Source of the DNA: Facklamia hominis CCUG 36813
GTDB lineage: Bacteria > Bacillota > Bacilli > Lactobacillales > Aerococcaceae
Assembly: GCF_000301035.1 (NCBI RefSeq)
Contig: NZ_JH932292.1
Location: 858,857 to 922,856 of the forward strand
Length of the DNA stretch: 64,000 bases
Direction of reading: 5' to 3'
Shown: piece by piece, positions 26,244-30,001 of the stretch
Layout: every line of letters starts with the position of its first letter
How positions within the stretch are numbered: the stretch's first letter is position 1
Translations under genes and position numbers: made by a program
Notes under the pieces: model-generated
What the model was told of the DNA's origin: nothing
The model's database searches: none
What the model saw: only the letters and a program-made list of their open reading frames with translations

Positions 26244-27218
26244 ATGCAGAAAAAACTTTTCAGCCTATTAATAGGGATAATTTTCCTAAGCTCATGTAGT
26301 CACACACAAATTACACCTGAACCAGAAGAAAAAAATGAGCAGGAAGACGTTGCCGCCGTAAAACAAACACGTAATATTAAGGAAGAAAAAATGGCCAGCT
26401 TTAAAGAAACGATTAATTTAGAAGACGAAAGTTTTGAATTGGATTCTTGGAATTATGACAATTTCGATTCCATGGAAAAAGTCATTAACGAAGTGATTAA
26501 TCAATATGGATTTTCAAAGAAAAATCTTGGAATCGCCTATTATAATCTGGTGTCTGGTGAAAGTTACTATCTTAATGAGAACAAAGCTATCCATGCTGCT
26601 TCTACCAATAAAGTAAGTACTTGTATCTTAATTTCGAACCTTATCAAACAGCATAAGCTTAATTGGACCACCCGCCTCCAGGCAAACCCCTCGCATTTCG
26701 AAGAAGGAGCAGGAGATATTACTAACCATCCCCTAAAATCCTCCTACACCGTCGATGATCTAGTGTATAACGCCTTAGTCTATTCCGACAATACCGCTTG
26801 GAATATTTTGATTGATTATTATTCTAAACATGTCGGGGATTATTGGACTGCCATTATTAAGCAATCTAAACTCAAAAACCCACCCGAAAGCTTAAAATCG
26901 CATCTTAACTATGCCACTCCACGAATGCTGCAAAATTACCTATACCAAGTGGCCACCGAGGATCAACATCAGCGTATCTTAAATTATCTCTTTCTCTCGG
27001 AACCCAATGAACGTTTTAAGCTCTTTGTCAAAAATGGAATGGCCACAAAATATGGTCAATACGGGCCCGGCTACCACGATATTGGCATCTACTACGATGG
27101 CAAACGTCCTGCTTATATTTTAGTGCTTATGACACGAGATATTGGGACCGTTGACTTATTCATGGGAGAGTTGAATCTAAGGGTCAACCAATACTACCGC
27201 TATCAATTAAGCCATTAA
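26244..27218 (+). CDS. Lipoprotein with class A beta-lactamase-like fold
   Basis: A 324-residue exported lipoprotein: lipobox LSSC with Cys18, an acidic linker to about 90, then a serine beta-lactamase/transpeptidase-like domain. The nucleophile motif is S120-T-N-K123, the second motif S181-D-N183 is intact, and the KTG position reads K263-N-G265. The protein is shorter and more divergent than true class A enzymes and lacks an obvious Omega-loop ExxxN, so antibiotic hydrolysis should not be assumed; a cell-wall or peptidase role is possible. It is monocistronic and was originally followed by the terminator now split by an IS. Confidence 0.8.
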   Translation: MQKKLFSLLIGIIFLSSCSHTQITPEPEEKNEQEDVAAVKQTRNIKEEKMASFKETINLEDESFELDSWNYDNFDSMEKVINEVINQYGFSKKNLGIAYYNLVSGESYYLNENKAIHAASTNKVSTCILISNLIKQHKLNWTTRLQANPSHFEEGAGDITNHPLKSSYTVDDLVYNALVYSDNTAWNILIDYYSKHVGDYWTAIIKQSKLKNPPESLKSHLNYATPRMLQNYLYQVATEDQHQRILNYLFLSEPNERFKLFVKNGMATKYGQYGPGYHDIGIYYDGKRPAYILVLMTRDIGTVDLFMGELNLRVNQYYRYQLSH

Positions 27219-27325
27219 TTAAGAAAAAAGTTGCTAAAAGAACTCGCTAGCTATTTAATAGTGATGTGACCCCCAAATGTTAGACTTTATTGCGTAACAG
27301 CTATCACAAGCTGTTACGCAATTTT

Positions 27326-28144
27326 TTATGCAACCAAGAGGCTAAGCCTGTATTGCACGGGACTCATCCATCCTAGTTTTTCTTTTATCCTTTGCTCGTT
27401 ATAATACTTAATGTATCGTTCAATTTCTGTCTTTAATTCTTCATAACTATAGTAAAGTACACCATAATAGATTTCTTGCTTAAGGATACCAAAGAAGTTT
27501 TCCATAACAGAGTTATCATGACAGTTTCCTTTGCGTGACATACTTTGGAAAATCTGGTTTTCTTTAAGGCGATGAGTGTATGCCTTCATCTGATATGCCC
27601 ATCCTTGATCAGAATGAAACGTTCTTCGATATGGGCAATCAGAAGTTATTGCCATAGCCTCTTCTAAGGCATCCATGACGTTCTTAGCTGAAGGTTGTTT
27701 ATCAATTCCATAGCTTAGGATTTCTCCATTGCACATATCCATAAATGGATCCAAATAAAGCTTGTGCATGGTCATATGTCCTTTAGAATCCACCTCATAG
27801 TACTTAAACTCCGTAGTATCTGTTGTAATCTTCTGATGGGGGATGTGTGTGTTAAACCGTCTCTTTATGCGATTAGGTGCAACTTTTCCAATTTTCCCTT
27901 TGTAAGAACGATACTTGCGACTCTTGCGGGTGAAGGATGTAACTTGTAATCCTAGCTTCTGCATTATACGTTGAACTTTCTTTTTATTAATGCGATAGCC
28001 TTGGTTTCTTAATTCTCCTAACATTCGACGATAGCCATAATCCTTATGACGTTCTCGAATTTCTAGTATCTTTTCCTCGATTTCTTTATCAGGATTTTCT
28101 CGATTAATTCGTTTTCGCCAATACATATAGGTTGCCTTAGGCAT
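27326..28144 (-). CDS. IS3-family transposase OrfB (DDE integrase)
   Basis: A 272-residue open frame from its first ATG; the coding frame extends upstream without a stop into orfA, so the working product is probably an OrfAB fusion made by a -1 frameshift. The HTH_21 region (RERHKDYGYRRMLGELRNQGY) precedes an rve integrase core. DDE residues are Asp in ITTDTTEFKYY, Asp in FHSDQGW and Glu in NSVMENFFGILKQE, with the usual IS150-group spacing. Confidence 0.93.
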   Translation of the reverse strand: MPKATYMYWRKRINRENPDKEIEEKILEIRERHKDYGYRRMLGELRNQGYRINKKKVQRIMQKLGLQVTSFTRKSRKYRSYKGKIGKVAPNRIKRRFNTHIPHQKITTDTTEFKYYEVDSKGHMTMHKLYLDPFMDMCNGEILSYGIDKQPSAKNVMDALEEAMAITSDCPYRRTFHSDQGWAYQMKAYTHRLKENQIFQSMSRKGNCHDNSVMENFFGILKQEIYYGVLYYSYEELKTEIERYIKYYNEQRIKEKLGWMSPVQYRLSLLVA

Positions 28145-28167
28145 ACCTATATAAGAGAGAAGGTCTT

Positions 28168-28746
28168 TTAGTTTGAATTCTCTTCGGAGGTTGTTGATGA
28201 CGAGTGCCGTTCTCTCATTTTTTCCTCGTCCTCTAAACGCAGCCTCCTCAGTCCTTTTAAAAAGGCATTCTCAATTCTTAGCTTAAGCAGTTCATCCTCT
28301 AATTTTTTAACATGTTCTGCACTGACATCCACTGTTCTTTCTTCAACTTCCAGAGCCTTAATGTCTATCTTAGATTTATCCATTTTTTTCTTTCGACCTT
28401 TCTTGCGTGGTCTCAAAGCATCAAGACCGGCAACGCGAAAACGGCTAACCCAATGACTAATCATACTGGGGTTGGTTATACCTTCTTGAATCGCCAATTC
28501 TTGATACGAAATTTCACTTGATAGATATAATTCTACAACAGAAAGCTTTTTCTCGAAAGAATAGTTTGTTCGTTTACGAGAACGCATTAATCCTTTATCT
28601 CCCAAAGCCTTGTATGTATTGATCCATTTACGTAGCTGTGAGTTAGAACCCAATCCATATTTTTTAGAAAGATAGTGTGTTCCCCCTTTACCATCCAAAT
28701 ATTCTAAAACAACTTTCTTCTTAAATTCAAAACTATATTTTGCCAT
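28168..28746 (-). CDS. IS3-family transposase OrfA (DNA-binding)
   Basis: A 192-residue protein with two helix-turn-helix units (LSKKYGLGSNSQLRKWINTY and YQELAIQEGITNPSMISHWVSRF) followed by a leucine-rich coiled coil (VKKLEDELLKLRIENAFLKGL) used for dimerisation. Near its end an A6 run (28218-28223 on the complement) lies where the -1 frame opens into OrfB, the standard place for programmed frameshifting. Confidence 0.92.
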   Translation of the reverse strand: MAKYSFEFKKKVVLEYLDGKGGTHYLSKKYGLGSNSQLRKWINTYKALGDKGLMRSRKRTNYSFEKKLSVVELYLSSEISYQELAIQEGITNPSMISHWVSRFRVAGLDALRPRKKGRKKKMDKSKIDIKALEVEERTVDVSAEHVKKLEDELLKLRIENAFLKGLRRLRLEDEEKMRERHSSSTTSEENSN

Positions 28747-28825
28747 AAAAATACCGACCTCCCAATCGTTAGATTTTTTGGTCTAACTTTTGGGGGTCGG
28801 TACAAGCTAGCGAGTTCTTTTCAAC

Positions 28826-30001
28826 TTAACTTGTTTGGATTTCTCTCAAAGTTTCATCAGGAACAACTACTGAACATAAAAGCATATAACCCATTTGCAC
28901 CCAGATAATCGAAACATCCATTAATCCATGAAATAGGCATACTCCTATCAAGCTAATTATTAAACCCAACTCCGGAGTCAACCCCCATTCCTTTAGTTGA
29001 AAAACTAGCCCACGGAAAAATGGACCTAAAAAAAGAATAAGCAGCATCATTCCAAAAATACCATAGTTAGCTAAACTATCAATAAGAATTTGATGAGCAT
29101 GCATTTTAGCTTGGTCAGATACTAAATAGTAAAACTTAACAAAAGTCATGGAACCACGGCCAATTAAAGGGCTGGTTTCAAACAACTTCCAACCCGCTAA
29201 CCATATTCCATATCGATCCGCAAAACCATGAGCCAAATTAGCAAATCGCGGCAAGAGACTGGGCTTCAAAACAAGTCCCGCAACTAAACCGAATGATGCT
29301 ACTGCTAAGATCCGAGCTAATTTTGGTTTTAAAGCCAAAACCATCATAACAACACCTAAAAAGACCGTTGGAATCGACCAACGCGATCCCGTTAGGATAA
29401 GTGCTATTAAATTCATAAAGATCGCAATATAAGACAAGATTCGCTCAGAAGTACTTCGCGATTTAAAAATTAGATAAATGGCCATCACCAAGACCATCGC
29501 AATGAGCAAACCGTAATAATTAGGATTGAAGACCGTGGCTTGAGCTCGCGTCTGCAGATTTTGATATTTAAAAATATACATCAAATCATAGCCTGCTCTT
29601 AATACTTGATTTACATAATGACCAAAAGCGTAAAACGCTAATAAAATCGAACCCCAGGTAAATATCTTTAAATTCCATCGATAAAGTCGAGCTGTGACTA
29701 GCTGTTTATATATCAAAAAGAAGAGACCAAATGTACCAAAGGCAAGAGGAAGTAGTATTCCTAGATAATTCCGATAATACAGAGCCACTGCGATCGCATA
29801 AATCACAAATATCAGCAAATAACGCAACTGACTAATATCTGATATAAGATCTTTCCAGTGACGAATCGTTAAATAAATCGTCGCCATAATTATCACCGGC
29901 CCACAAATATAATAAGGCAAGAGAATTGCAAAGGAAGTTAATAAAAATACCTTTTCATCGGTAGATAGACTGGATACGTTCGAAAATAAAGATTTAAGCA
30001 A
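28826..30001 (-). CDS. O-antigen ligase / Wzy polymerase-like membrane protein
   Basis: A 391-residue polytopic membrane protein with about ten to twelve hydrophobic segments and the O-antigen-ligase (Wzy_C) region: ATVFNPNYYGLLIA, LTGSRWSIPTVFLG and, in the outer loop, IGRGSMTFVKFYYL with MHAHQILIDSLANYGIFG. Such proteins polymerise or transfer lipid-linked glycans at the outer face of the membrane. The start is a TTG at 30001 with GGAGTGA upstream. It stands alone, without glycosyltransferases beside it, so the glycan is unknown. Confidence 0.85.
   Translation of the reverse strand: MLKSLFSNVSSLSTDEKVFLLTSFAILLPYYICGPVIIMATIYLTIRHWKDLISDISQLRYLLIFVIYAIAVALYYRNYLGILLPLAFGTFGLFFLIYKQLVTARLYRWNLKIFTWGSILLAFYAFGHYVNQVLRAGYDLMYIFKYQNLQTRAQATVFNPNYYGLLIAMVLVMAIYLIFKSRSTSERILSYIAIFMNLIALILTGSRWSIPTVFLGVVMMVLALKPKLARILAVASFGLVAGLVLKPSLLPRFANLAHGFADRYGIWLAGWKLFETSPLIGRGSMTFVKFYYLVSDQAKMHAHQILIDSLANYGIFGMMLLILFLGPFFRGLVFQLKEWGLTPELGLIISLIGVCLFHGLMDVSIIWVQMGYMLLCSVVVPDETLREIQTS

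Follow-up and report, generated by a model that had tools for sequence, protein, structure and literature searches.

How IS elements find sites that are harmless to their host is an old question, and it is raised in a concrete form by the locus studied here, where an element stands between two convergent genes and inside an inverted repeat. In the window (the whole stretch of 64,000 nt that was analysed), the arms AAAAGAACTCGCTAGCT (27236-27252) and AGCTAGCGAGTTCTTTT (28805-28821) are 17 nt long, show 100% complementarity, and are separated by 1552 nt, which bears out the initial annotation of perfectly complementary arms 1.55 kb apart. Was the element steered to this palindrome, and what became of transcription termination at the ends of the two genes?

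The element was delimited by a second copy in the same genome (a single contig of 1.9 Mb), which is located at G000:808217-809759, is 99% identical over 1543 bp, and fixes the ends at 27262-28804 (Table 1). The terminal repeats (TGTACCGACCCCCAAAAGTTAGAC / TGATGTGACCCCCAAATGTTAGAC) are imperfect. Compared with the model NF033516 (transpos_IS3), OrfA matches at 1.9e-13 and OrfB at 6.1e-78 (262.6 bits, above the cut-off of 160). An OrfA with helix-turn-helix (HTH) stretches, an OrfB with an rve/DDE domain (PF00665, together with PF13276) matching the IS3 model, and inverted repeats with TG..CA ends place the element in the IS3 family, as had been annotated.

Removal of the element and of one AG restores AAAAGAACTCGCTAGCTATTTAATAGCTAGCGAGTTCTTTT, a perfect palindrome of 41 nt. 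Across the junction the pairing reaches a score of 20.0, while 6000 pairs of positions drawn at random from the window at a spacing of 1543 bp give 17.0 at most. Two details of the initial annotation have to be corrected. The element had been placed in the loop of the hairpin, but its junction is in the stem near the apex, in the 3' arm and about 5 nt off the axis; a target duplication had been denied, but a 2-bp direct repeat, AG, becomes visible once the second copy defines the ends. The duplication is 3 bp long at the second copy, and 3 bp in 47/71 and 4 bp in 10/71 of the relatives; for the IS3 family, 3-5 bp would be expected. Because the relatives mostly show 3 bp, the AG repeat in the window is possibly a 3-bp TAG that lost one base on one side.

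Table 1. Features of the interrupted terminator and its surroundings in the window.
Feature	Position	Strand	Basis
Convergent gene 1, lipoprotein-like protein, Beta-lactamase2 family	26244..27218	+	PF13354 5.2e-27
Left part of interrupted terminator palindrome (left arm, apex, first right-arm bases)	27236..27261		inverted repeat; refolded empty site
2-bp target repeat AG, left copy	27260..27261		sequence
Complete IS3-family element, 1543 bp, ends TG..CA	27262..28804	- (transposase genes)	second copy and inverted repeats
IS-borne terminator-like hairpin (14-bp perfect stem, 6-nt loop, T6)	27289..27328 (hairpin 27289-27322)	+	inward from beta-lactamase-like gene
OrfB, DDE transposase, 272 aa as listed	27326..28144	-	PF00665 rve 4.1e-18, PF13276 HTH_21 1.6e-15
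OrfA, helix-turn-helix DNA-binding protein, 192 aa, two HTH_28 stretches	28168..28746	-	PF13518 1.6e-19, PF01527 1e-11
IS-borne terminator-like hairpin (terminal repeat and subterminal inverted copy, then TTTTT just before OrfA start codon)	28747..28801	-	inward from wzy-like gene
2-bp target repeat AG, right copy	28805..28806		sequence
Remainder of palindrome's right arm, ending TTTT	28805..28821		inverted repeat; refolded empty site
Convergent gene 2, Wzy_C / O-antigen ligase-like protein	28826..30001	-	PF04932 4.6e-12

Sites without the element carry a terminator-like hairpin, and the comparison of empty sites put forward in the initial annotation thus gave a positive answer in four congeners and five Lactococcus plasmids. 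The four congeners, which are all other genomes of the genus, possess the same convergent pair with an uninterrupted hairpin between the genes, followed by T-rich sequence; within their short intergenic stretch, which folds at -27 to -35 kcal/mol, there is a single strong hairpin. The stems differ from species to species, so that the empty positions are orthologous without being identical empty sites. For one plasmid-borne copy of ISLla3 in Lactococcus, an exact empty site was found: the joined flanks have a 100% match (357/357 bases) in five plasmids, which carry a single copy of the 3-bp TSD and the intact hairpin. No empty site was found for the joined L272-left/L273-right flanks of ISLla3 on Lactococcus plasmids, nor in the two E. 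faecalis plasmids examined that have the L277 left flank, both of which carry the insertion. It is extremely improbable that the palindromes are a chance or structural artefact, with repeats that belong to the element or arose by recombination. IS-IS recombination does rearrange the flanks of some copies, but the arms are different at every site, and the artefact is refuted by the exact empty site, since the hairpin is present without the element in the five plasmids and, with other stems, in the four congeners. The targets have the predicted layout of intrinsic (Rho-independent) terminators, namely a stem-loop and then a T-tract at a gene end.

The hairpin preference was analysed in 126 related insertions, which are natural surviving copies in genomes and not new transpositions. 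The same-family set (Aerococcaceae, as inferred) was obtained from 88 regions around OrfB relatives, of which 71 copies had ends set by conserved terminal repeats; contigs of Globicatella and Falseniella were matched by members of the family other than the source. The independent Bacillota-wide set was taken from named genomes (55/80 usable), including Enterococcus, Lachnospiraceae, Acidaminococcus, Peptoniphilus, Macrococcus, Bacillaceae, and others. Pairing was scored between the 40 nt left and the 40 nt right of the insertion, with a hairpin threshold of >=11, and was compared with flanks swapped among copies, which preserves their A/T-rich composition, and with shifted positions on the same flanks.

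In the same-family set (n=71), the median pairing score was 13.0 versus 6.9 for swapped flanks (p=1.3e-13), and the threshold was reached by 55% at the insertion, by 0-8% at 20-200 nt away, and by 10% after swapping. The Bacillota-wide set (n=55) gave 69% at the insertion versus 5.5% for shifted positions and 9.5% for swapped flanks (p=1e-15), so the flanks of other copies, when examined as initially suggested, do form inverted repeats. In the genome of the window, the 99% copy, IS3 copies of lower similarity, and a mini-element of 53 bp are all situated in terminator-like hairpins. The duplicated bases are centred on the hairpin axis or very close to it (median offset 0.5 nt; offset 0 in 29/77). 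Left A-tracts are as strong as right T-tracts, and therefore no orientation is preferred (no bias of the T-tract at insertions, 23 vs 27).

Such a pattern could also arise if the elements inserted anywhere and only the copies between gene ends, where terminators are located, were tolerated. The insertions are indeed intergenic and often lie between convergent genes, which are the least harmful places (hairpin insertions: 37 convergent, 25 tandem, 2 divergent). We consider this survivorship quite improbable, however, because the signal is confined to a few bases around the hairpin axis and is absent 20 nt away, 25 of the hairpin insertions are between tandem genes, and IS256-family copies, which are under the same selection in the same genomes, have hairpins in 0/14. 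An IS3-family element with a one-HTH OrfA of 97 aa in the same genomes has hairpins in 0/5 (controls: Fisher p=1.2e-7), and other IS3 groups with multi-HTH OrfA in 14/20, although the ends of the control IS3 groups were defined by aligning copies with one another and may deviate by a few bases. Separately, a distant IS3 group (L164-L166, L172-L180) was observed whose OrfA has 236-251 aa and apparently three HTH units, and which has terminator-like hairpins and paired inward terminators.

The preference for hairpins is not absolute, since copies below the hairpin threshold (31-45%) include some with a clear duplication of at least 3 bp (23/57, same-family set). Several of them still look like imperfect terminators when folded, as judged by eye. 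Exchanging the flanks of the two copies L114/L118 (G043) restores the duplication and the hairpin, and flank exchange between the ISLla3 copies L272/L273 (Lactococcus plasmids) gives much stronger hairpins, both as expected after IS-IS recombination. Such recombination was rejected as a general cause of low scores, because it resolves only L114/L118 and, partly, L272/L273. The suggestion that the element may prefer hairpin loops thus holds for the hairpin, according to the other copies and the empty sites, but not for the exact position, which in the window is the stem near the apex.

Almost every site has a stem sequence of its own, and the stems are mostly unrelated, which bears on what is recognised. 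Recognition of an A-tract/T-tract or of a motif common to terminators, and not of the palindrome, would agree with the mean composition of the flanks (A-rich left, T-rich right, with C slightly enriched at -9 to -7). This explanation is unlikely, because the stems are otherwise unrelated and some targets are palindromes without A/T tracts, e.g., GGGACA..TGTCCC repeats (L245-L249) and ATTATCATATATGATAAT in L127. As for these sites, the Bacillaceae members L245, L246, L247, and L249 are in GGGACA..TGTCCC-type palindromic sequences that are not terminators, and L127-L129 (G040) are near or within repeats of the second palindrome. A model in which one stem base is recognised at a set distance was also considered and was rejected, as the variance was no different on the two sides. 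We therefore hold it to be very likely that, in an IS3 branch related to IS150 but outside it, the transposase complex steers insertion to the dyad axis of palindromes, which in most cases are the bidirectional intrinsic terminators of gene ends, a function read from sequence alone. From the unrelated stems and the targets that lack T-tracts, we infer that the complex may recognise symmetry or an extruded hairpin, not sequence, and the multi-HTH OrfA may contribute to targeting. With so many natural insertions in sequence-diverse hairpins, it becomes possible to test in laboratory strains whether a DDE transposase recognises dyads or cruciforms.

In a tree built with FastTree from 71 representative OrfB proteins, hairpin insertions occurred in nearly all branches (local support only; one long branch), and IS150 stood in a separate branch. 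IS150 is like the branch of the window element in having a related transposase (39.6% identity), a multi-HTH OrfA, and 3-4 bp duplications, but unlike it in that nearly all of its sampled copies are at hok/mok toxin loci and not at terminators. These loci (hokA, hokB, hokE, mokC, plasmid hok) are occupied by 16/17 of the sampled IS150/ISKpn8 copies on enterobacterial plasmids and chromosomes (L264-L270, L299-L308), several at the same sites, and 2/7 of the IS150/ISKpn8 plasmid copies reach the hairpin threshold. IS150 was accordingly rejected as a terminator-targeting element.

The initial annotation further stated that neither neighbour has its normal terminator. This is true of the original hairpin, but the implied loss of termination does not follow, because an inward IS-borne hairpin faces each neighbour. 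Among 124 full-length copies, inward terminator-like hairpins were found at 119/124 left ends and 124/124 right ends, versus 0/124 and 8/124 in internal windows. When one copy per further element was examined, the terminator-targeting IS3 groups had both hairpins, three IS256 elements had neither, and IS150 had one at one end. The presence of inward hairpins at both element ends suggests a probable replacement of host termination, not its loss, given the predicted function of these hairpins; an IS at a gene end should thus not automatically be equated with loss of termination. The two IS-borne hairpins would stop transcripts that arrive from either neighbour. An insertion would then cost the host one terminator, supply two carried by the IS, and be close to neutral; the same hairpins may also shield the transposase gene against read-through. 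Whether a large Bacillota IS3 branch follows such a safe-haven strategy, in which structure-guided insertion at the terminator axis is combined with paired inward IS terminators that replace the destroyed function, seems to us evenly balanced. If it does, the ~53-bp mini-elements would be mobile hairpins that nest in terminators.

Mini-elements of ~50 bp, which consist of the IS terminal repeat and a subterminal inverted copy without transposase, were identified in three genomes of the genus: L007 1500-1552 (G000:1618982-1619034), L013 about 1501-1554, and L018 about 1501-1545. Each is nested in a terminator-like hairpin.

Among known elements, ISLla3 and ISEfa10 (IS3 family, public plasmid annotation) encode OrfB proteins ~60% and 67% identical to the OrfB in the window, respectively. 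The ISLla3 copy is in a terminator-like hairpin like the window element, while the ISEfa10 copy examined has a low score (4.5) and no duplication. No targeting by ISLla3 or ISEfa10 was described in the literature searched, nor was terminator targeting by the IS150-related IS3 branch; an earlier description is possible, since the Siguier 2014 review was outside the search. The same literature gave no report of the combination suggested by the sequences, in which an element with an IS3 transposase enters terminators of diverse sequence, leaves both arms in place with a duplication, and brings a pair of IS terminators of its own.

Intrinsic terminators are target sites of group IIC (class C) introns as well (PMC3522654, citing Robart 2007). 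These introns are retroelements without a DDE transposase, and they integrate downstream of the stem-loop, with IBS pairing. Within the IS3 family, IS1397, ISKpn1, and ISPsy8 insert in REP palindromes, and ISPsy8 inserts at the axis of the predicted REP hairpin with a 3-bp duplication (PMC1525189). Their targets are the conserved REP/PU sequences of one host, whereas those of the window branch are sequence-diverse terminators; the branch has no conserved family of repeated palindromes as its target and is not IS1397-like in this sense. The comparison with IS1397 made in the initial annotation was to a member of the correct IS family, although terminator targeting had already been described for IS1272 of the IS1182 family. 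In Staphylococcus, IS1272/TnSha1 insert into hairpins, several of them terminators confirmed by RNA-seq, with no primary sequence consensus, and the hairpin is wholly or partly deleted or replaced without duplication (PMC4923244, PMC5678879). The window element is not an IS1272-like member of the IS1182 family, as it has no IS1182 transposase, its hairpin was not deleted, and a duplication is present; its branch has an IS3 transposase, keeps both arms, and duplicates 3-4 bp. Terminator targeting among DDE elements would thus be wider than IS1272 alone suggests.
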